Positions 51,295-61,123 of a stretch of DNA of 64,000 nt are shown here, one piece after another. The position numbers and the translations under genes were made by a program. Numbering within the stretch: the first letter of the stretch is position 1; the number at the start of each line of letters is the position of its first letter. This stretch comes from an uncultured Bacteroidales bacterium (GTDB lineage: Bacteria; Bacteroidota; Bacteroidia; Bacteroidales; F082). Location of the stretch: assembly GCA_946185535.1 (NCBI GenBank), contig CAMHJX010000004.1, positions 79,849 through 143,848 of the forward strand. Reading direction: 5' to 3'. The notes under the pieces are model-generated. The model searched no databases. It saw nothing but the letters and a program-made list of their open reading frames with translations, and was not told the DNA's origin.

Positions 51295-52239
51295 ATGAAA
51301 AGTGGAAAACTGAAACAAGAAATTCTGGCCTATTTCTATTTGATTTTAGGATCGGCTCTTTTTGCTGTCGGCGATGTGATGTTCGTGAATCCCTATCACT
51401 TGGCTCCTGGAGGCGTTTACGGTCTTGCCAACGTGTTCAACGCCTTATGGGGGTGGAAGATTTCCGTGTCCGGCATTTGCATGGACATACCTTTGCTGAT
51501 TATCGGCACGATTATCTTGGGACCTAAATTCGGCATTAAGACCATTATCTCGGTGATCTTGATCCCCGTGTTTACTTATGTCCTTGAGACTTTCTGGGGC
51601 TATGCGCCTGTGATTCATGGTGGTGCAGTGGCGGCCGATACCCAGTCAGCACTCTATTACATCGCTAAGGACGGCTCACAGAGTTGGTTCATGCCTGATA
51701 TGTTCTTGAACACCGTGGTTTCGGGCCTTATCTATGGTGTGGCTATCGGTGTCATCTTCCGTTCGGGTGCCACTTCGGGCGGTTCCGACATCATTTCCAT
51801 GATTATTCACAAATACACAAAAATCAGCCTTGGAACACTGGTGCTTATTGTCGATAGCATCATCTCTCTGACCACGCTGCTTGCCTTTGAAGATTTCCGT
51901 TTGCCCATTTATTCCATCATCCTTATCTTCATCGAGAGCAAGATTATCGACTTGGTGGTGGAAGGCGTAAAGAGCTACAAGACAGCTTTTATCGTTACGG
52001 ATAAGATTGAAGAGGTGCGCAACTTCATCATCAATAATTTGGACCGCAGCGGTACCGTTTTCGCGGGTAGTGGCCTCTATCAAGGTGCTGAGCGCAAGAT
52101 GATTTATGTCACCCTCAACCGTTCAGACTTGGTGAAATTGAAAGCCAACCTTCGTTTCCTCGACCCGAATGCTTTCGTCAATGTGATTGAAAGCAGCGAA
52201 ATCATGGGTAACGGCTTTAAGGCTTTGCCTACTGAATAA
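51295..52239 (+). CDS. YitT family membrane protein, second copy
   Basis: 314 residues. There are six hydrophobic segments up to about 210 (ILGSALFAVGDVMFVNPYHL, FRSGATSGGSDIISMIIHKY), then a DUF2179 domain (TAFIVTDKIEEVRNFIINNL, SGTVFAGSGLYQGAERKMIY). It is related to the first YitT (10177-11169) but clearly diverged. The substrate is unknown. It is followed after 32 nt by a lipoprotein gene and is probably in operon with it. Confidence 0.88.
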   Translation: MKSGKLKQEILAYFYLILGSALFAVGDVMFVNPYHLAPGGVYGLANVFNALWGWKISVSGICMDIPLLIIGTIILGPKFGIKTIISVILIPVFTYVLETFWGYAPVIHGGAVAADTQSALYYIAKDGSQSWFMPDMFLNTVVSGLIYGVAIGVIFRSGATSGGSDIISMIIHKYTKISLGTLVLIVDSIISLTTLLAFEDFRLPIYSIILIFIESKIIDLVVEGVKSYKTAFIVTDKIEEVRNFIINNLDRSGTVFAGSGLYQGAERKMIYVTLNRSDLVKLKANLRFLDPNAFVNVIESSEIMGNGFKALPTE

Positions 52240-52271
52240 TGAATTATTAGGTTGTTAAAGTTCAATTTGAT

Positions 52272-53003
52272 ATGAAGAAATTAGCATTCCTTTTGCTCGG
52301 ACTTATGGCTGTGATTGCCATGTCGTGCCAAAATACGGGTAACGATGGCAATGAGCCTGCCAAAAAAGATAACCAACCGACTGAGGCTTCTGTCAAGCAT
52401 GCTGTCGAGCAACTGATGCAGATGGATGTTGAGAACGACATGGATCGCATGCTCACCGCCGATATGCTTTCGTTGCAGAAGCAGGTACTTGGCGTGCACT
52501 TTGAAGGCACTCATTTCATGGGTTTCCAATGGAATACTGGTGTGCTGGACGTCTGCTCGGAAAACAATGAGACTACAATCGAAGGAGTGAAATTGATCGA
52601 TTCCTTGCACTCTGATGTGGCTATGCGCTATGTGGATGAGGGCTGCTATGATGAGCGATATACCTTGCATCTCTTGAAGGAAAATGGCCAATGGAAAATC
52701 GATGATGTTGATTTTCAAGAGAGTACATTGCGCGACCAGTGTAAAGCCTTCTATGAGGAGGTAGCGGAATGGTATCGCACGGAATCCCCCGAGACCATTA
52801 TGGACTTTTTTATGACAGAAGAACCCTTAGAGGAAAATTTCACGGATCCTAACACCATTTATTGCAACAATCCTGAAGCGGTTAAGGGACTCATCAGCGA
52901 GATTCGTAACGACCACGAACTCTTCAAGATGAACCCCGGCTATACCGAGGAGATGGGAAAACAAATCGAGGTGATGATTTCACGCATTGAGGCGCATCTT
53001 TAA
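52272..53003 (+). CDS. Lipoprotein, DUF3828-like
   Basis: 243 residues. The signal LLLGLMAVIAMSCQNTGN gives a lipidated Cys. The mature protein is acidic and helical, with YTLHLLKENGQWKIDDVDF, which resembles DUF3828-type domains. No catalytic motif is seen. The gene ends at 53003, four bases inside the convergent WYL gene (53000). Confidence 0.7.
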   Translation: MKKLAFLLLGLMAVIAMSCQNTGNDGNEPAKKDNQPTEASVKHAVEQLMQMDVENDMDRMLTADMLSLQKQVLGVHFEGTHFMGFQWNTGVLDVCSENNETTIEGVKLIDSLHSDVAMRYVDEGCYDERYTLHLLKENGQWKIDDVDFQESTLRDQCKAFYEEVAEWYRTESPETIMDFFMTEEPLEENFTDPNTIYCNNPEAVKGLISEIRNDHELFKMNPGYTEEMGKQIEVMISRIEAHL

Positions 53004-53908
53004 TATTTCTTCAACATTTCCTTAAGCAACGACTTGATTTTCTCCCTCAGCGAAATCGGCTCCAGCACCTCAATATGTGCATTCATAGTAAACAATTGTT
53101 GGATGAAGTCATAGGAAGGTTTGAGCCGCCATGAGAAGATGGTATAGTCGTCGGTTTCTTCGATGATGCGTTGGCTGTGGTGCAAGGGCAAGCCTTTCAG
53201 GAAATTGCTTTGGTCTTTGTCGGCCTTGACGAGGATTTCTTCAGTCTGCAATTCAGGCTCCACGTAGATGCCGAAAGCGTCTTGGAAGTGTGTCTGCAAA
53301 TCAAAATCTTCTGGAGCCTTGAAGGTGGTCTCAGTGAGGTTAAGTGTATCGATGCGGTCTAAGGCATAGCAACGAATCTCTTCCTTTTCGTTGAGAGCTA
53401 TCAGATACCATCTTTGCTTGAAAAGCTTTATAGCCAGTGGCTTGCAGTGGTAATGCTTGATGTCATCGGTGCCATAATACCGTCTGTATTGCATCTCGAT
53501 TTCAAGGTTTTTCTCCAAAGCCTCCATCAGTGGCTCCAAATGCTCAATGCCGCCTGGGATGCGCTCAAATTGCACCCGTTTGCGTAGGCTAAGGTCTGAC
53601 GAAAGCCTATTATTGATGGCGAAACTGTGAAGCAGCCACATTTTCAGGTCGTTGCCGAGCATTTCCTCACGTTCGCCTTGGGGAATATAGTAGGAATTGC
53701 GGCTTTTGTCGCACTCAATGTCGATGCCGAATACATCGGCAATGTGTTGACGGTAGTTGTGGAACGACCTTTCGGGGATAGGGTCGTTGTCGTCGTCCCG
53801 CGTCCACCGTTCGTTAAGTTCCTTCAGCGTGATGCCCGCGTCGCGGCGGTCGGCGATGGTGTTGGCAATCCAAATGCATTTGATGAGCTTGTCCATAAGG
53901 TGCTTCAT
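53000..53908 (-). CDS. WYL domain transcription regulator
   Basis: 302 residues. There is an N-terminal winged helix-turn-helix (MKHLMDKLIKCIWIANTIAD ... RSFHNYRQHIADVFGI) and a WYL domain from about 130 (YRRYYGTDDIKHYHCKPLA, KQRWYLIALNEKEEIRCYAL). WYL regulators bind ligands or nucleic acids and often control phage-defence genes. The ATG at 53908 is used because the longer reading begins with the TTG of the -7 box. It stands at the end of the accessory block and might control the shared operators at 56360 and 60450; this is an inference. Confidence 0.88.
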   Translation of the reverse strand: MKHLMDKLIKCIWIANTIADRRDAGITLKELNERWTRDDDNDPIPERSFHNYRQHIADVFGIDIECDKSRNSYYIPQGEREEMLGNDLKMWLLHSFAINNRLSSDLSLRKRVQFERIPGGIEHLEPLMEALEKNLEIEMQYRRYYGTDDIKHYHCKPLAIKLFKQRWYLIALNEKEEIRCYALDRIDTLNLTETTFKAPEDFDLQTHFQDAFGIYVEPELQTEEILVKADKDQSNFLKGLPLHHSQRIIEETDDYTIFSWRLKPSYDFIQQLFTMNAHIEVLEPISLREKIKSLLKEMLKKY

Positions 53909-53917
53909 ATTTGCTCG

Positions 53918-53948
53918 CAAAGATAATGGTTTTATGCAAACGCCCCAA
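53918..53948 (-). promoter_or_regulatory. WYL gene promoter
   Basis: TATCTTTG (53918-53925, minus) with TTG (complement of 53946-53948) 20 nt upstream. The transcript would begin within a few bases of the ATG, so the leader is very short. Confidence 0.65.
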
Positions 53949-53950
53949 GA

Positions 53951-54664
53951 TTATTCTTCCATCAGGAGTTCCCATGTCTGTTTGAGTGGAAACAACGCTT
54001 CAAACTTTTTCCTTGACCCCTTGGGAATGATGATCCTTTTCAAGGCTCGGCAACCTAAAAATGCTGTTGGGTCAATCTTTGTGATATTGTTGGATAGTCT
54101 TATCGTGTCAAGATTTCCGCACCATGCAAAGGCGCATCTTCCAATCTTCATCTTCGTGCCAGGATAGGCGGTGAAGTAAACCGCTTCCAGATATTGGCTC
54201 TCCATGAAGGCGTTTTCGCCTATCTCTGTAACCTCTACACCGCCATCGGCTGCACCATCATTTACCACTACAGGTATCGAGTATTCTTTGTTGGCTCTGC
54301 CGCAAGGGTATTGGAACAAGGTGTAGCCGTGGCTTTTGCCAAAGCGGTCGTAGTTCCTTTCAAACAACACGCCGTTTTGGGTCAGATAGTTGAGGCAATA
54401 CGGTGGCCCTGGCCTGAAAGCTATCGAGTCCAATTGCTTGCACCGCGCAAAGGCGTTTGTGCCAATCCGCTTGATGTCGCCCGAAAGGACGATAAACTTT
54501 ACATTGTTTGCGTTTTCAAACGCACTTTCGCCAATATATTCAACGCTGTGGGGCAGCAAGATTGACCTGATACCGTCAAAGCTTTCATGCCTAAACGCAA
54601 AGTCGCCAATGTCTGTGATGCCTGATGGTATTTGTAGGGTGTGTTTTTGTTTTCCTTCTTTCAT
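53951..54664 (-). CDS. LRR_5 (BspA-like) leucine-rich repeat protein without signal peptide
   Basis: 237 residues. Repeats of the TpLRR/BspA type are visible (ITDIGDFAFRHESFDGIRSI, VEYIGESAFENANNVKFIVL, IKRIGTNAFARCKQLDSIAF, EIGENAFMESQYLEAVYF). The start, MKEGKQKHTLQIPSGITDIG, has no signal or anchor, so it is probably cytoplasmic, unlike most BspA proteins. Its start is 20 nt after the AAA gene, so they form one unit. A protein-recognition partner of the ATPase is possible. Confidence 0.8.
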   Translation of the reverse strand: MKEGKQKHTLQIPSGITDIGDFAFRHESFDGIRSILLPHSVEYIGESAFENANNVKFIVLSGDIKRIGTNAFARCKQLDSIAFRPGPPYCLNYLTQNGVLFERNYDRFGKSHGYTLFQYPCGRANKEYSIPVVVNDGAADGGVEVTEIGENAFMESQYLEAVYFTAYPGTKMKIGRCAFAWCGNLDTIRLSNNITKIDPTAFLGCRALKRIIIPKGSRKKFEALFPLKQTWELLMEE

Positions 54665-54684
54665 GTTGTTGCTGTTTTTGTGAA

Positions 54685-56316
54685 CTAAAACCCAATCCTC
54701 GGTCTGTTTTCAGCAATGTTTTCTTCTTCGCAAAAGCCGACGAGTGTTTCAAGGCTCGGCGTTTGGCCTGTCAGGATATGCTCGACGGTTGCTTTTCTTG
54801 TGATGTTTTCCATTTGACCGCCGCTGAAGTCGTAACGTTCAGCAAGGATGGCCAAATCGTTTTCGGGCAAATCGGGCATCATGCTTTGCCAGATTTGGAG
54901 GCGTGTGGCGCAGTCGGGTTTGTGGAAGTTGATTTTGTAGAGGAAACGTCGTTCAAAGGCAGAGTCCATGTTTTGTGTCAAGTTGGTCGTGGCCATCATA
55001 ATGCCGTCCAAAGTTTCCATCTCTTGTAGGATGATGTTTTGCAGCGCGTTTTCCATTTGGTCAACGGCATGGATGGCGTTGGTGGAACGTTTCGCAATGA
55101 TACCATCAGCCTCATTGAAAAGCAGGATAGGCTCTTTGTCGCAAAACTCCACGAAATTGCGATAACGGTCGAAGACGTCCTTCACCCTTTTCTCGCTTTC
55201 GCCCACCCACTTGCTGCGCATCTCCGAAAGGTTGACTTGCATGATGTTTCGACCCGTGGCGCGGGCAATTTGCAGCACGGTTTCAGTCTTTCCCGTGCCA
55301 GGTGCACCATACAGGAGGCAGGCAAAACCGCTGCGCATTCCTTGTTGCTTCATCCTGAGCCTGATGTCACTGAATGATGTCGGTTGCAGTAGACTTTTTA
55401 GCCGCTCTATTTGGGCTTGGTCGTTGGCATTATAGTACAGCCGTTTTTCAGTAATGCTTGCGGCCAAGGTGAGTTCATCAAGGTCAACAGGCGCCTGTTT
55501 GAGGCAATTTTTGGGCAACAAAGTTTCCTTGCCGTGTTCGGTCAGTCGGAAGGTGTCACCGCCAAAAAGCTCATGGCCTGCTGGCTCCACCAACTTGTCT
55601 TTAATGAGCCGATGCTGACCGTTGCGTAGTTGGTTGAACTCCGCCTTTGCTTGTCGCTCGTTGTCGAAAAGGTATTCAAAATCACGGAATTCAAGTTTTT
55701 CTTCCCTATCGACGAGTGTACTGAGGCAGAATTTCAGAAGAAAGACAAGTTCTTTGTCGTCATAATTCAGTCTGTCAAGTTTTGTGACAAAATCCAATTG
55801 TGGGTTAGCCGTTATGAGTTCACGGACATCATAGACGAAACACTCAAATGATGTTTCCTTCTCGTCCTTTTCCTTGAATATCGAGTCTAATTGCAGAATG
55901 AATGTTTCAAAGTTGAGGTTGCCTATTTCTTGTTTCTCAATCTCCGTATCGTTCAACAAGCAATTTAGGATGTATTCTGGCACGTAGTAGCTTTCTTCGC
56001 TATACAATCCTCTTTTTCCATTGCTCCGTATGAGCCTTGCCTGAAGAAGTGCTTTGAGGTCGGGAGCAAGCCGGAGCATGTCGAGGTCTTTGCAGTCAAG
56101 GTGGCGTTTGATGTCAGAAAGGGAACACGTGGAGCAATATGACGAGTAGGCGATGATGGCGAACAAAGTGGCCTGCTCCTTGCTGATTCCCAATTTGTTG
56201 GCAAGTCTTTCAAGCGGTTGTGCGTTTTTTGCCATGAATTGGCCTTTCATCTGGGAGTCTTCTGATGCTTTGACAATCTTTTCAATGTCGAGCAATGCGG
56301 TTGATTTTTCTTTCAT
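54685..56316 (-). CDS. AAA ATPase (26S/vesicle-fusing type)
   Basis: 543 residues. An N-terminal helical part of about 300 residues precedes a single AAA domain: Walker A GAPGTGKT (337-344), pore-like SKWVGESEKRVKDVF, Walker B region PILLFNEADGII (about 396-406), sensor MMATTNLTQNMDSAFERRF. The first Walker B acid is Asn (N401) with Glu at 402, a variant found in several bacterial AAA proteins. It probably remodels proteins. An operator palindrome covers its -7 box. It is co-transcribed with the LRR gene. Confidence 0.85.
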   Translation of the reverse strand: MKEKSTALLDIEKIVKASEDSQMKGQFMAKNAQPLERLANKLGISKEQATLFAIIAYSSYCSTCSLSDIKRHLDCKDLDMLRLAPDLKALLQARLIRSNGKRGLYSEESYYVPEYILNCLLNDTEIEKQEIGNLNFETFILQLDSIFKEKDEKETSFECFVYDVRELITANPQLDFVTKLDRLNYDDKELVFLLKFCLSTLVDREEKLEFRDFEYLFDNERQAKAEFNQLRNGQHRLIKDKLVEPAGHELFGGDTFRLTEHGKETLLPKNCLKQAPVDLDELTLAASITEKRLYYNANDQAQIERLKSLLQPTSFSDIRLRMKQQGMRSGFACLLYGAPGTGKTETVLQIARATGRNIMQVNLSEMRSKWVGESEKRVKDVFDRYRNFVEFCDKEPILLFNEADGIIAKRSTNAIHAVDQMENALQNIILQEMETLDGIMMATTNLTQNMDSAFERRFLYKINFHKPDCATRLQIWQSMMPDLPENDLAILAERYDFSGGQMENITRKATVEHILTGQTPSLETLVGFCEEENIAENRPRIGF

Positions 56317-56359
56317 GATGCTTTTGTTTTGTTGATTTCATCGGCAAAACAAAAACAAA

Positions 56360-56382
56360 ACTCTGCCAAATTTAGGCAGAGT
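56360..56382 (-). promoter_or_regulatory. Operator palindrome over the AAA gene -7 box
   Basis: ACTCTGCC (56360-56367) and GGCAGAGT (56375-56382) are perfect 8-bp arms with a 7-nt centre. On the minus strand the -7 box TAAATTTG (56367-56374) lies inside it. The same 23-bp arrangement occurs at 60450-60472. Confidence 0.65.
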
Positions 56383-56441
56383 TGGTGGTTCGTTTGAAAA
56401 ACACGGAAAATCAACGGGGATTGCTTCGTTTTGAAACCCTT

Positions 56442-57467
56442 TTATTTCTTTTCCGTTCCATCAATGAAATAAACGCCACAATAAATGGTGTAATCTATAT
56501 CCTCATTAATAACGATATTGTATGTTTTGTTTTTTTGTAAGTTAATGGTAGGAGTTGCGGTGCAAACACTATTGATATTAGCGGCGTTCATCTTTTCTGC
56601 CAAATCTGTGTTTTTGTTGGATGATTCATCTAAATTGTTGATTTTCTCACCATTAAAAAACTTGTCATAATAATTCTCTTTGTCCTCTTTCCTTTTACAT
56701 TCACCATTGAAGTAATGGTCAGCTAACAAAACGATTGCTTTATTTGTAGGAGAACCCAATGGAAGAGGAATGTTTGGATGATGTTTCTTAATCCTCTCAA
56801 GGTCATCCAAAAGACACTCAAAATGAGCGATGTCATATAGCCTTTTCGCTTCAATATAGATTACCCAATTTTCGTCAATTATTATAGAATCGACATGCTC
56901 TCTGTCGACATTATTAATAGGTATTTCTTGCCAAACAATTGCCTTATCGTTCTGTTTTAAATAGGTATGGCAAAAGTTAAAAGTAAGGTTTCTTTCCGTA
57001 AAGCCATTGATAACAAGCGAGGACTCGACTGTTTTTGTAGGAAGGTAACGATTCTCATTAAAAGTCTTTTCGTATTTTTTACCAACAAGTTCGTATGTTT
57101 CAGAGAGTGTCTTTAAAAGTCTTTTTTTCACTTTTTCATCTATCGGTGTGGTAATCGAAACAGATATGTCTTTTCGCTTTTGGTCTTTGTCTTTTTTCTC
57201 AATATTGACGATGAAACCATTTTCGGCATCGGATTTGAAAAGAATTTTGTCACCTTCTTTTAAGTTCCAGTGGTCAATAAACTCCTTAGTTTGAGATAGC
57301 CGTAATTTTTTGCGAGATCTTTTTACATCAAAAAAGAACTCGCGATCATCTTGACCCACAATTTTGATTTGGTGTCCAACACGGTGATTAAATAGACGAT
57401 GAACGCTTCTATCAAGAACGATATAGTTTTGTGTTACATCTGTGAGGCTTAGTTTGCCTTTCTCCAT
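56442..57467 (-). CDS. B3-like DNA-binding domain plus PD-(D/E)XK nuclease (EcoRII-like layout)
   Basis: 341 residues, visibly AT-rich and Lys/Asn-rich compared with its neighbours. Residues 1-90 resemble a B3/AbrB-like beta-barrel (RKKLRLSQTKEFIDHW, NLKEGDKILFKSD). Residues about 180-230 show an endonuclease core: Asp193 in HVDSIIIDENWVIYIEAK and E206-A-K208. The order of a B3-like domain followed by PD-(D/E)XK matches that of EcoRII-type restriction enzymes. No methyltransferase is near. It lies 53 nt after the Mrr_N gene. A modification-dependent or addiction-free nuclease is inferred. Confidence 0.6.
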   Translation of the reverse strand: MEKGKLSLTDVTQNYIVLDRSVHRLFNHRVGHQIKIVGQDDREFFFDVKRSRKKLRLSQTKEFIDHWNLKEGDKILFKSDAENGFIVNIEKKDKDQKRKDISVSITTPIDEKVKKRLLKTLSETYELVGKKYEKTFNENRYLPTKTVESSLVINGFTERNLTFNFCHTYLKQNDKAIVWQEIPINNVDREHVDSIIIDENWVIYIEAKRLYDIAHFECLLDDLERIKKHHPNIPLPLGSPTNKAIVLLADHYFNGECKRKEDKENYYDKFFNGEKINNLDESSNKNTDLAEKMNAANINSVCTATPTINLQKNKTYNIVINEDIDYTIYCGVYFIDGTEKK

Positions 57468-57520
57468 ACGACAATATATTTGCTTATAATAGTTTATCGA
57501 ATACTGTGTTGTTTAACTTG

Positions 57521-57940
57521 TTACTTGTTTTCAAATAGAGTTTTACAAAGGTCGTCAAAATCAATGATTTCGCTTTCCTTAGCTTTCTTCCTATGTCCTT
57601 CAGATACCCATTTGCGGTATTCGGGGAACTTCTTTAGATAACTGTAAGAAATTGTCCCGTGGTTTTCATTTAGGGCATTCAAGCCACGTTGGGTTATTCT
57701 ATGGCCTTGAGGCGTGAACTCTTCCAATCCAGCGAATCGAAAGCGTTCCTCATTCGAGGCCACTTTTTTGTAAAACACCTTGTCGTAGGGACGTTTGTCA
57801 TAGTTTTCTGTGCGTTCTTCCTCGGTCAGATGGTAATAATTAGCCAGTTTTTCAACAATTTCCTTTTGGGTTAAAGGGCTTTCTTCTTTTAAAATGGACA
57901 ACACTTGGTACTTCAGTTTTCCGTGGTCTATTTTTTCCAT
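57521..57940 (-). CDS. Stand-alone Mrr_N winged-helix protein
   Basis: 139 residues. The Mrr N-terminal winged-helix pattern is clear: YQVLSILKEESPLTQKEIVE, HLTEEERTENYDKRPYDKVF, ERFRFAGLEEF, THGHRITQRGL-like (TPQGHRITQRGLNALNENHG). In Mrr this domain precedes a nuclease; here there is none, and the nuclease gene follows. A split system is therefore possible. The ATG at 57940 (MEKIDHGKLKYQ) is used, since the -7 box TATATTTG lies at 57969-57976 (minus), downstream of the longer reading. Confidence 0.75.
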   Translation of the reverse strand: MEKIDHGKLKYQVLSILKEESPLTQKEIVEKLANYYHLTEEERTENYDKRPYDKVFYKKVASNEERFRFAGLEEFTPQGHRITQRGLNALNENHGTISYSYLKKFPEYRKWVSEGHRKKAKESEIIDFDDLCKTLFENK

Positions 57941-57968
57941 GTTTTGTTGTTGTTTTGGATTATCGCTG

Positions 57969-57976
57969 CAAATATA
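57969..57976 (-). promoter_or_regulatory. -7 box of the Mrr_N gene
   Basis: TATATTTG (minus), followed by CA. The AT-rich upstream region has no clear -33 element at 19 nt. Transcription would start about 20-25 nt before the ATG. Confidence 0.6.
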
Positions 57977-58011
57977 ATGATTTTTCAAACACAAGCTCGT
58001 TGCAAGGTTTT

Positions 58012-58686
58012 TTATTCCAGCATAACAATCCCTCCATCCAACCGAATATAAATCTCAAACTCAAACTCGTTCACATAAACGAGGTCATAGAGGCTGAAAT
58101 GGCGGTTGTCATAGAGGTTGTGGAAAGGATAAACAAGGTGCATGTCCTTCGACCATTCGTAATCCAAGCCCTCGTTCCAGTTGTCGTTTTCGTCGGCCAT
58201 GCCGAGCCATGCTTCAAGGCTTTCGTGCGCCGACATGATTCCGTTTTGGTTCCATCTCAGACTCCACGAGCAGCCATCCGTGGAATACATGCGGTCGTAG
58301 CCGCCTTGGGTCATCACCTCCCACATCGTTTCCGCTCGCTCGGTCTGGACGGGATGCGCCGTAGGATAGGTATAACCTAACTTCAAATTCCTTTCAACTT
58401 CAAGGTCGCCGATGCCGTCGTAGAGTTTCATCATGCCCTCGTGGATGGCTTTCGTCTTGTTGAAGAGGGCAGTGGCTGCTGCCTTTATCCTGTCGTTGAA
58501 ATCCGACAGCAGCCTTTTGTTTTCCTCGTCATACTGCATAAGCTCACGCAGTATCATCCACCGATGATGCAGTGCATTCTTGATGATGGCTTCCGCTTCG
58601 ACTTGTTTCCCATGCTCGTACTCATCCAAGATGATTTCTTCCAGCATCACGATGCGAGGGTCTTCAAATGCTTCTTTGGTGTTCAT
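58012..58686 (-). CDS. Unrecognised protein, accessory block
   Basis: 224 residues, acidic and soluble. It has an N-terminal coiled-coil-like part (AEAIIKNALHHRWMILRELM, DFNDRIKAAATALFNKTKAI) and an aromatic-rich C-terminal half (GCSWSLRWNQNGIMSAHESL). I know no family. It starts 8 nt after the previous gene's stop, so it is the last of a three-gene unit (59793, 58695, 58012). The C-terminal half is rich in Asp, Tyr and Trp and may be a binding domain. Confidence 0.6.
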   Translation of the reverse strand: MNTKEAFEDPRIVMLEEIILDEYEHGKQVEAEAIIKNALHHRWMILRELMQYDEENKRLLSDFNDRIKAAATALFNKTKAIHEGMMKLYDGIGDLEVERNLKLGYTYPTAHPVQTERAETMWEVMTQGGYDRMYSTDGCSWSLRWNQNGIMSAHESLEAWLGMADENDNWNEGLDYEWSKDMHLVYPFHNLYDNRHFSLYDLVYVNEFEFEIYIRLDGGIVMLE

Positions 58687-58694
58687 CTTGCATG

Positions 58695-59765
58695 TCAGTT
58701 AAACCCGTTTGCAGCTGCTTCCAACATTTTCTTGTTAATCCTCGTGTATCTGTTCACTTGCTTCGTTGTCATGCTGCCCGAAGCGTTTTCCAGTTGTTCA
58801 CCCAATTCCTCTGCTTTTTCCAACAGCTTTGCATATTGCGTCATTGCATCCATATCGCCTGAAGCAATTCTCTTCAAACAAGCGATGTATCTGTCAACAT
58901 AGTTTTCATAAGCATCGAGCACTTTGTCCCAATCGGTTGTGGCTGTTACTTGGCCTCTGCCTTCTATGATTTCACAAGCCGAGGTGATTTTGAAGGTAAG
59001 CTTACCTTTTGCTTTGTCTTCAGCAGGGTCAGTGTCCCAACGGATGATACCGATTCCGCCAGGTTGGAGTTTCATAAGGTCGAGTATGTCATTGCTACTG
59101 TATGGCCCCAGAAGCCCCGTGGCTGTTGCTGAACGTTTGTCTACCAAGTTGCCGTCCTTGTCAAAGGTTTCCAATCCGAATCCTACTTTACAGTAGGCTC
59201 TTCCATCGGAGTAGGTGTCGTTGAATCTTGCCACTGTCATACTTTCATCCCATGGAAAAGGCATGTCAGTACGCCTCAACTCCACATTCCAGAGCGACCA
59301 CCTTCCTTCTGTGGCAATGATTTCTTTTTCGACCACCTCGAAATATCCGCTCAGGTCACCTGAGATTTCTGTAGTCTTCGGCGACATGGTTGGGCGTTTG
59401 TTTCCACTGCAACCACATAAGACGAAAGTGAGAACAAAGAGAAGACAAACGAATGTTTTCTTTCTCCTCAACCATAATAAAGGTTTTCGTGGGCAAGTGA
59501 GATGCAACGCCGTGTTTTCAATATCAAGCGTGTACTTGATGGTGTCTCCAGGTCTCAGTTCATAACGGTCATAAAGCTTGCTCAATCCTAAAACACGGTT
59601 GAATTTGGTTGCACAAAGCTGATGTGTGTGGGTGCGGTCGTCCACAATGACGACTTGCGGCGGGACATGTGGGTATTCTGTCCAAAATTCAGGTGGCATG
59701 GTAAAAGTCCCGTAGTGGATTTCCCATTTGTCTAATGTCTTTTGTTTACTGTTTCTGCGTTCCAT
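58695..59765 (-). CDS. B3-like domain joined to a lipoprotein-like part
   Basis: 356 residues. Residues 1-90 resemble the B3-like domain of the nuclease at 56442 (FNRVLGLSKLYDRYELRPGD, TIKYTLDIENTALHL). Residues 96-120 are a perfect lipoprotein signal: basic LRRKK, hydrophobic TFVCLLFVLTFVL, then CGCSGNK with Cys119. The rest (residues 121-356) has helices at the end (YIACLKRIASGDMDAMTQYA) and no known family. Such a signal inside a protein is odd. Either it is a membrane-anchored regulator, or a separate lipoprotein gene starts at an in-frame TTG about residue 99. Confidence 0.55.
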   Translation of the reverse strand: MERRNSKQKTLDKWEIHYGTFTMPPEFWTEYPHVPPQVVIVDDRTHTHQLCATKFNRVLGLSKLYDRYELRPGDTIKYTLDIENTALHLTCPRKPLLWLRRKKTFVCLLFVLTFVLCGCSGNKRPTMSPKTTEISGDLSGYFEVVEKEIIATEGRWSLWNVELRRTDMPFPWDESMTVARFNDTYSDGRAYCKVGFGLETFDKDGNLVDKRSATATGLLGPYSSNDILDLMKLQPGGIGIIRWDTDPAEDKAKGKLTFKITSACEIIEGRGQVTATTDWDKVLDAYENYVDRYIACLKRIASGDMDAMTQYAKLLEKAEELGEQLENASGSMTTKQVNRYTRINKKMLEAAANGFN

Positions 59766-59792
59766 TTCTGTGGTTTTTAATAGTTGCTGGTT

Positions 59793-60410
59793 TTATTGAA
59801 AGCATTGGTATATTGCTTGTGTGTCTTTGACTAAATTTTCCTCAACAAAGCCATCCCAATCGAAAGGCGTGGGCATAACAAATTGGAAGCCAAGGTTGAG
59901 GTCGGTCATGTCGCAAAGTGTTTCATCCTCAATGGGAAGATGGTGGCGCTCATAGTATGCGTGTTCTTTGATGAGGTTGCTGCCCATCAAGGCAAGCTGC
60001 TCGTTAGGCTGATGCTGTTCGTCTTTGGGTCGGTACCAAATGCCGTGAATCAGCCTTTTTTCCGTCCCGTTCACCCAATAGACAGCGATTTCGTTGAAAA
60101 GGTTGTCGTCAAAGACCATCGTTCCGATGCGGGCCGTGGATTTGCTACAGCCTGCGCGAAGGAAAGATTGCAGGTCAATACGAGCTTGAAAGTCAGTTGT
60201 GTAACTTTCGCCTAAAGTCTCGTAAAGCACATCAATCAGGCTTTGATAATAGGCAAAGGCTTCCTTCCGTGCCTTGCTGAGGTCGGTGTCCTCAAAGGTT
60301 TTGTTGATGCAGCAAAGCTTGTCTTTCCTTGATTCGTGATAGTTCGCATTGTGCATTTGTCCCTTCCAGAACAGCCCATGCACGAGGTAATGTGATTTCT
60401 TTTTGTCCAT
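59793..60410 (-). CDS. Unrecognised protein, accessory block
   Basis: 205 residues, soluble, with Trp/Tyr-rich beta segments (IAVYWVNGTEKRLIHGIWYRP, HYLVHGLFWKGQMHNANYHE). No family is known to me. It is the first gene of the three-gene unit, with the operator palindrome upstream (60450-60472). The start at 60410 (MDKKKSHYLVHGLFW) is used because a longer reading begins with a TTG at 60437. Confidence 0.6.
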   Translation of the reverse strand: MDKKKSHYLVHGLFWKGQMHNANYHESRKDKLCCINKTFEDTDLSKARKEAFAYYQSLIDVLYETLGESYTTDFQARIDLQSFLRAGCSKSTARIGTMVFDDNLFNEIAVYWVNGTEKRLIHGIWYRPKDEQHQPNEQLALMGSNLIKEHAYYERHHLPIEDETLCDMTDLNLGFQFVMPTPFDWDGFVEENLVKDTQAIYQCFQ

Positions 60411-60449
60411 AGCGGTGTCGTTTTGATTTCGGCGCAAAACAACACCATC

Positions 60450-60472
60450 ACTCTGCCAAAAACAGGCAAAGT
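60450..60472 (-). promoter_or_regulatory. Operator palindrome before the three-gene unit
   Basis: ACTCTGCC (60450-60457) and GGCAAAGT (60465-60472) surround a 7-nt centre, the same design as at 56360-56382 with one arm mismatch. A poor -7 box TGTTTTTG (60457-60464, minus) lies in the same place. The flanking sequence upstream of both sites is also similar (GGCAAAACAA / GCGCAAAACAAC). Confidence 0.6.
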
Positions 60473-60536
60473 AACCAAGATTATCAAAAATAGTTATTAA
60501 CGACCGCCCGGTTGGGCAAGTCGCTCATCGTAAGAA

Positions 60537-60564
60537 CTGTTTTGTGTGTTTTGTCAGTTTTGTG
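60537..60564. repeat. Octamer repeat at the purN 3' end
   Basis: Three copies of CTGTTTTG/TGTTTTGT/AGTTTTGT in tandem overlap the purN stop codon. They are related to the arms at 47385-47523. Confidence 0.55.
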
Positions 60565-61123
60565 ACAACAACACCTGCTCAATTGCAATAGGAAAATACG
60601 CCTGCTCCAGATGGTGGATTTTAGCCGCCAGGGAGTTGGGTGTTTCTTTTTCATCCAAGCTGACGCGGGCTTGCAGGATAATCTCACCGCTGTCGTAAAT
60701 CTCATTGACATAGTGGACAGTGATGCCAGATTGGGCTTCCTTGGCCGCCACTACGGCTTCATGCACATGCTCGCCATAAAACCCTTTGCCGCCATATTTG
60801 GGCAATAGGGCAGGGTGGATGTTGACAATCTTTTTCGGGAAGGCCTTGACCAAGTTCTCCGGAATCTTCCAAAGGAAACCAGCCAACACGATAAGGTCGA
60901 CATGAAGGTCTTGCAGCTCCTTAATGAAGGCTTCGCTTTTGAATTCTTCTCTATTGATCATACGCAGGGGAATGCCCAATTTCTTGGCTCGTTCAATGGA
61001 ATAGGCCTTGGGATTGTTGCACACTACGTTGATGATTTCAACGTCTTTGTTGTCGGCGAAATACTCGGCAATGCGCTGCAGGTTGGTGCCGTTGCCGCTG
61101 ACGAATATGGATAGTCTTTTCAT
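60554..61123 (-). CDS. purN: Phosphoribosylglycinamide formyltransferase
   Basis: 189 residues, the usual PurN length. The GART motifs are VSGNGTNLQRIAE, VNIHPALLPKYGGKGFYG (catalytic Asn and His) and SGITVHYVNEIYDSGEII (catalytic Asp). It formylates GAR in purine synthesis. Its ATG overlaps the stop of the upstream secreted protein gene by 4 nt. The C-terminus LLSQN is reached within an octamer repeat. Confidence 0.93.
   Translation of the reverse strand: MKRLSIFVSGNGTNLQRIAEYFADNKDVEIINVVCNNPKAYSIERAKKLGIPLRMINREEFKSEAFIKELQDLHVDLIVLAGFLWKIPENLVKAFPKKIVNIHPALLPKYGGKGFYGEHVHEAVVAAKEAQSGITVHYVNEIYDSGEIILQARVSLDEKETPNSLAAKIHHLEQAYFPIAIEQVLLSQN

Follow-up and report, generated by a model that had tools for sequence, protein, structure and literature searches.

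An eight-gene block and its insertion site

The window analysed here is a stretch of 64,000 nucleotides from an uncultured Bacteroidales bacterium of the F082 lineage (contig CAMHJX010000004.1), and within it a block of eight minus-strand genes (g1 to g8; 53000..60472) was examined. The first-pass annotation had proposed these as a single candidate defence block, and the eight open reading frames (ORFs) were all found at that place. Comparison with related genomes of gut bacteria divides the block into a conserved frame, comprising g1, g2 and g3 on one side and the genes for an AAA ATPase (g6), a leucine-rich repeat (LRR) protein (g7) and a WYL regulator (g8) on the other, and an exchangeable slot between them (about 57957-56384), which holds g4 and g5. 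The idea of one block stands in part: g4 and g5 make up one cassette among several that can replace each other, and the remaining six genes form a frame that itself varies. The frame carries two like palindromes, the nuclease cassette differs between species and has moved as a unit in some cases, and the empty site in relatives is clean.

Together with a 243-amino acid (aa) ORF (52272-53003), the block is an 8.3 kb insertion (52239..60572) at a hotspot between two convergent genes, a yitT-like gene on the plus strand (51295-52239) and purN on the minus strand (60554-61123), as the window aligns to two genomes with an empty site (L154 and L155) up to 52238 and again from 60573, with a gap of 9 bp there. 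This agrees with the original description of the genes as accessory; the defence-like block is horizontally exchanged, with an empty site in relatives. A survey of 99 same-genus genomes, own genome included, found purN in 93 and the yitT-like gene in 94, and both were on a single contig in 49 genomes (50 pairs). By a hand tally of distances measured between the protein matches, 11 pairs lie at most 10 bp apart, 30 are intermediate and 9 are more than 4 kb apart. Seven of these nine wide gaps are frame loci (G000, G374, G451, G453, G454, G458 and G462) and two have other content; in G402 (L152:3507-9773) the hotspot is occupied by a different AAA relative (41%) plus other genes, with no g8 match in the 12 kb read, and in G409 the gap holds other genes.

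Frame loci were found through orthologues of the WYL protein, which have at least 79% identity in 16 of the 99 same-genus genomes; the 17th frame genome (G462) has an 88-residue end of the protein at 85%, and all 17 neighbourhoods were read. The yitT-like gene adjoins the WYL gene downstream in L057, L095, L096 and L097 (with four small ORFs between them in L097), and six frame loci sit elsewhere (L056, L059, L060, L061, L100 and L101). Nine of the ten named relatives are titled metagenome-assembled genomes and the tenth resembles them, which leaves room for contig chimaeras; they are unlikely to be the cause of the arrangement because many separate assemblies have it.

The eight genes were scanned with Pfam, listing families at E<=1, and with PADLOC and NCBIfam, and the Mrr_N, AAA, LRR and WYL domains first annotated all scored above their Pfam cut-offs. 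The AAA ATPase g6 (54685..56316; 543 aa) matched Pfam AAA at 84.2 bits (cut-off 21.2), and its Walker-type residues are invariant across 15 relatives. IetA was its best match in both PADLOC and NCBIfam, confined to residues 274-521 or thereabouts; with 87 bits against a cut-off of 510, and no protease family listed by Pfam for the eight genes, identity of the block with IetAS was rejected. The regulator g8 (53000..53920; 306 aa, likely start ATG 53908) has a WYL domain (48.8 bits, cut-off 21.8) and a WCX domain (35.5 bits, cut-off 23.9), and no helix-turn-helix family was among its Pfam listings at E<=1. Between them lies the LRR_5 protein g7 (53951..54664; 237 aa, 99.1 bits, cut-off 27.7). 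The first frame gene, g1 (59793..60437), encodes 214 aa, or 205 aa from the likely ATG at 60410; it had no match in Pfam, PADLOC or NCBIfam, its AlphaFold model failed (predicted local distance difference test, pLDDT, 44), and relatives were found in seven of 149 family genomes, own included. In g2 (58695..59765; 356 aa) an N-terminal module of about 97 aa is fused to a lipoprotein-like DUF6591 part (31.8 bits, cut-off 27.1), which is free-standing in L059, L061 and L094; L093 retains the first module only. The end of g3 (58012..58686; 224 aa) is just short of the slot. Genes g2, g3 and g7 are each missing in several loci, and five loci (L059, L060, L061, L101 and L102) have an AAA gene that is short or a remnant, or none at all. 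Pfam listed no methyltransferase family for these eight genes, to which the search was confined, in line with the earlier statement that none is nearby.

Nuclease cassettes in the slot

The edges of the slot were set by comparison with L058, where similarity to the window ends at 57957 and restarts at 56384 (57962 and 56388 with L056). It holds g4 (57521..57994), a Mrr_N winged-helix protein of 139 aa from the likely ATG at 57940 (32.6 bits, cut-off 29.5), and g5 (56442..57467), a 341-aa protein with a B3-like N-terminus and a predicted PD-(D/E)XK-type nuclease. Both are AT-rich, as had been noticed, with G+C contents of 0.398 and 0.342 versus 0.479 for the whole window. The nuclease prediction for g5 draws on a family alignment, a modest AlphaFold model and weak structural matches. 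Residues D193, E206 and K208 are invariant in an alignment of eight family members, where a D...ExK active-site pattern is present; the modest-confidence model (mean pLDDT 59.7, with blocks within residues 161-250 at 68-90) has the core order alpha-beta-beta-beta-alpha-beta. In the Foldseek comparison that the first-pass annotation had called for, the top row was a B3 domain (E 0.02, TM score 0.12); the structural matches behind the nuclease prediction were weak, and most were to restriction-type enzymes. In Pfam the B3 match was sub-threshold (18.5 versus 30.1 bits, E 0.002), none of the four families listed at E<=1 was of the PD-(D/E)XK type, and the HNH_2 row (E 0.16) is at chance level. 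Both parts of the B3-like/PD-(D/E)XK label are less well founded than its original wording had them.

The B3-domain restriction enzymes, EcoRII and the R-proteins of NgoAVII and CglI, combine a B3-like DNA-binding part with a nuclease part, and g5 appears to do likewise. Unlike EcoRII, g5 has no EcoRII family match; the CglI and NgoAVII systems include a methyltransferase and a DEAD-family helicase, neither of which was found in the block. The winged helix of g4 is shared with Mrr, but no match to the Mrr catalytic domain was seen in g4, g5 or the scanned cassette proteins. As neither the EcoRII nor the Mrr catalytic family was listed by Pfam for g4 or g5 at E<=1, neither an EcoRII-like nor an Mrr enzyme as such is supported, and nor is the corresponding part of the annotation.

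Locus L097 begins inside the AAA gene, and the slot is visible in the remaining 16 of the 17 loci. A PD-(D/E)XK-type nuclease occupies thirteen of these, in three kinds: the g5 family in seven (the window, L057, L060, L093, L096, L098 and L100), NucS_C in three (L058, L061 and L095) and an HSDR_N-like protein in three (L094, L099 and, below the Pfam cut-off, L059). Ten cassette proteins and then three more were scanned by Pfam, and alignment was the basis for assigning the nucleases of L057, L098 and L100. Read by eye, the slot of L056 is a remnant, in which Mrr_N is joined to an apparent NucS_C domain end with the core missing; no nuclease was recognised in L101 and L102, the slot proteins of which were not put through Pfam. 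Cassette proteins of 99, 107 and 94 aa had no Pfam match, and the nuclease in the L058 slot hits candidate families of PADLOC, with PDC-S02 (E 3.7e-23) the best of them. Mrr_N is fused to the NucS_C nuclease in L061 and L095, and is a separate gene (g4) in the window.

These contents bear on the original proposal of a type IV-like restriction pair, Mrr_N plus the B3/PD-(D/E)XK protein, lying beside unrelated genes. The Mrr_N match, the sub-threshold B3 match and the lack of a methyltransferase match would fit such a pair, as would the joint movement of its two genes between the window and L057 (see below), but the absence of both catalytic families, the constancy with which the nuclease stays with the frame, and the loci in which a nuclease of the g5 kind is accompanied by the 99-aa protein or has no Mrr_N gene make this account very unlikely.

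Exchange was assessed in 11 loci with an AAA gene, taking the DNA of the AAA and WYL genes as the frame and comparing 55 pairs of slots. Frame identity is 88-94%, except for pairs with L099 (82-84%) and with L100 (69-70%). No common 200-bp stretch is found in 33 of the slot pairs, whereas three are alike across 80% or more of the shorter slot, each exceeding its own frame identity: window-L057 (slot 99.4%, frame 90.8%), in which the Mrr_N-nuclease pair moves as a unit, L093-L098 (98.4% and 91.1%) and L094-L099 (88.9% and 84.1%). In ten pairs a common module exceeds the frame in identity, as the LRR gene does among L056, L095 and L096 (96.9-97.9% versus 89-91%), and in nine a common module falls short of the frame, as the g5-type nucleases do between the window and L093 (67.3% versus 91.1%). 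These nine led to the dropping of a simpler statement, by which two slots would either have nothing in common or resemble each other more closely than their frames do. The closest frames hold different slots (L057-L096 at 94.2% and L058-L098 at 93.4%). Because the pairs range from unrelated, through modules above or below the frame, to whole matches, the slots as aligned are patchworks, replaced whole or in part.

The g5 family is present in seven of the 99 same-genus genomes and in all seven lies in this slot, which is 7/17 frame genomes versus 0/82 others (Fisher P 1.3e-6, uncorrected for relatedness); the annotation had named genes that fail to travel together as a refuting outcome, and this was not observed. 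The family is rare: a search with the g5 protein found relatives in 2 of 295 Bacteroidales genomes, and outside the genus one of these 295 has two g5-relative genes, adjoining a WYL gene; the family profile found 1 of 395 Bacteroidota genomes, which is the own genome. No relatives were found in viral contigs, by protein or family-profile search, or in phage and plasmid collections, and mobile carriage of g5 was rejected. The cassettes could otherwise be selfish or hitch-hiking nuclease genes at a neutral site, which the frame neither controls nor needs. Their movement between species, a promoter-like stretch of their own and the loci that keep a nuclease without the AAA gene are consistent with this; it is nonetheless judged unlikely, given that the family never occurs outside the slot in the same-genus genomes, that the visible slots are filled by three nuclease kinds with no other enzyme kind recognised, and that the viral, phage and plasmid collections lack g5 relatives.

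Palindromes and promoter-like stretches

A 23-bp palindrome, ACTCTGCC-N7-GGCAGAGT, stands at the slot's right edge, ahead of the AAA gene (56360..56382), and a second of the same length, with one change from it, precedes g1 (60450..60472). The exact pattern ACTYTGCCN7GGCARAGT occurs at only these two places in the 3.67-Mb genome, in which a reversed control pattern has no place; the shared operator predicted at first is thus borne out as a repeated site. Allowing up to 2 mismatches, two sites are present in 12 of the 17 loci and one in three (L096, L100 and L101), with none in L097 and L102 and none in 520 kb of other DNA. Both arms of the AAA-proximal palindrome are invariant in ten aligned loci (L100, with 2 mismatches, was left out). 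The stretch common to all ten starts at the left arm, and 42-43 bp remain to the AAA start codon; where cassettes are alike, the resemblance continues upstream of the palindrome. Because nothing upstream is common to all loci, the promoter of the AAA gene is probably situated inside the palindrome or beyond it, a position that would suit repression. The slot opens with a TATATTTG promoter-like stretch in 7/10 loci, which we take to be of the Bacteroidota type.

BrxR (PMC9122601) and CapW (PMC9122588) are WYL proteins that repress defence operons and bind to palindromes, and WYL regulators of phage-defence operons also appear in PMC9122589. The sites of CapW are 19-24-bp palindromes over the -10 site, and those of BrxR are 11-bp repeats with a 5-bp spacer, two of which (R-BOX) lie in one island in pEFER. 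The block resembles these in that its WYL-WCX protein adjoins defence-like genes, its palindromes are about as long and two sites lie in one island. It differs in that it has no BREX or CBASS genes, its palindromes precede g1 and the AAA gene and not the WYL gene, and the second palindrome is flanked on one side by the exchangeable nuclease slot.

Relatives of the AAA gene and a proposed function

Matches to the AAA protein occur in 97/99 Bacteroidales genomes, mostly to the AAA domain alone; 12 genomes, own included, have a match over most of the protein, and the family profile at E<=1e-60 found 21 of 295 genomes of the class. Thirty-six AAA loci were read, the window excluded and the regions of two places (G619 and G615) not included, and a WYL gene lies within 5 kb in 22, a count in which several contigs end nearby and eight WYL genes belonged to the profile that found them. 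From 227 neighbour proteins 117 were picked by hand, mostly the nearest, so that the sample behind the following tallies is not a fair one: GmrSD_N 7, DUF2779 5, ADP_ribosyl_GH 3, PDDEXK_4 3, N6_Mtase 2, McrBC 1 and DUF2130 1. The HsdM family is also among the neighbours, and McrC adjoins one AAA relative. In a fairer test, a hand count over 30 genomes with such AAA genes, 12 of the 39 GmrSD_N matches, spread over 8 genomes, are at most 10 kb from an AAA gene versus 0.31 expected from length (binomial P 2e-16, ignoring the clustering of defence genes and of neighbouring copies); clustering of this kind could by itself account for part of the excess. GmrSD and McrBC, often with WYL, adjoin relatives of the same AAA gene, and are not among the Pfam matches of the window's block.

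A cluster of WYL, 3'-5' exonuclease, two DUF262 and AAA genes recurs in L118 and on plasmids of Prevotella sp. E2-28 (L148) and Chryseobacterium balustinum (L150), in the latter with the AAA gene annotated in two pieces; together with AAA and WYL, the DUF262 proteins may constitute a separate system. AAA relatives were also found in 12 viral contigs of up to 339 kb (including L140, L141, L144 and L145), with no WYL gene recognised within stretches of up to 6 kb on each side. In the own genome an AAA paralogue (38%; L034:3244-8316, contig C23) has LRR proteins and an ADP-ribosylglycohydrolase (Pfam 133.8 bits) in its vicinity, and SbcCD-like genes adjoin an AAA paralogue. A WYL paralogue (35%; L103:7381-13201, contig C6) adjoins a 1537-aa ORF followed by repeat-built ORFs resembling a CRISPR array; from a motif, the start of the 1537-aa ORF is presumably Cas9-like.

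A DNA-repair or stress locus was also considered, in which WYL and AAA would form a DNA-damage regulon and the nucleases would process the cell's own DNA. The SbcCD-like neighbours and the repair-type NucS_C family lend it some weight, and the WYL proteins PafBC and DriD drive DNA-damage responses (PMC11804915 and PMC12340889). It is improbable all the same, as the quick replacement of one nuclease by an unrelated one and the lack of the insertion in close relatives suit an accessory role, and GmrSD, McrBC and HsdM families are among the AAA neighbours.

We lean towards reading the block as a defence locus, directed at phage or foreign DNA and controlled by the WYL protein, in which the nuclease slot is exchangeable. 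The WYL protein would bind both palindromes as a dimer and repress the g1-g2-g3 and AAA-LRR units, and infection or DNA damage would lift this repression; for the WYL proteins PafBC and DriD, single-stranded DNA is the reported signal. The AAA ATPase would then load, remodel or activate the resident nuclease, with the B3-like and Mrr_N parts choosing the DNA, and a swap of cassette would change the target with the control circuit retained. Type IV or modification-dependent action is a guess, and dependence on modified DNA is the simplest one for how self DNA might be spared without a methyltransferase.

Several observations weigh against this defence reading. The nuclease is retained in L059-L061 although the AAA gene there is lacking, shortened or reduced to a remnant, which speaks against AAA being strictly required, and in 14 of the 36 AAA loci no WYL gene lies within 5 kb. 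Because the cassette's promoter-like stretch has no palindrome, WYL control of the nuclease would be indirect at best, by read-through or via the AAA protein. The reading leaves g1 and g3 unexplained, PADLOC lists nothing for g4 or g5, and the fold model of g5 and its structural matches are both weak. A broader version, put forward tentatively and with more doubt than belief, is that of a plug-in restriction platform: one WYL-AAA control chassis with a fixed slot, which the operator bounds on one side, for unrelated PD-(D/E)XK cassettes, in which the AAA protein would be a general activator or loader of the resident nuclease, the same chassis serving GmrSD- and McrBC-type nucleases elsewhere in Bacteroidota.

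WYL regulators, restriction nucleases and defence hotspots are already known; a conserved regulatory frame with an exchanged nuclease and an edge at the operator was not found described in the open-licence literature searched, in keeping with the first impression that the combination is not a described system. If the proposal is true, a cell could renew its restriction enzyme and control need not be rebuilt. AAA-WYL neighbourhoods would then be a handle for finding further nuclease systems in Bacteroidota, and the slots would offer a natural series of cassettes from which recognition by B3-like and Mrr_N domains could be learned.

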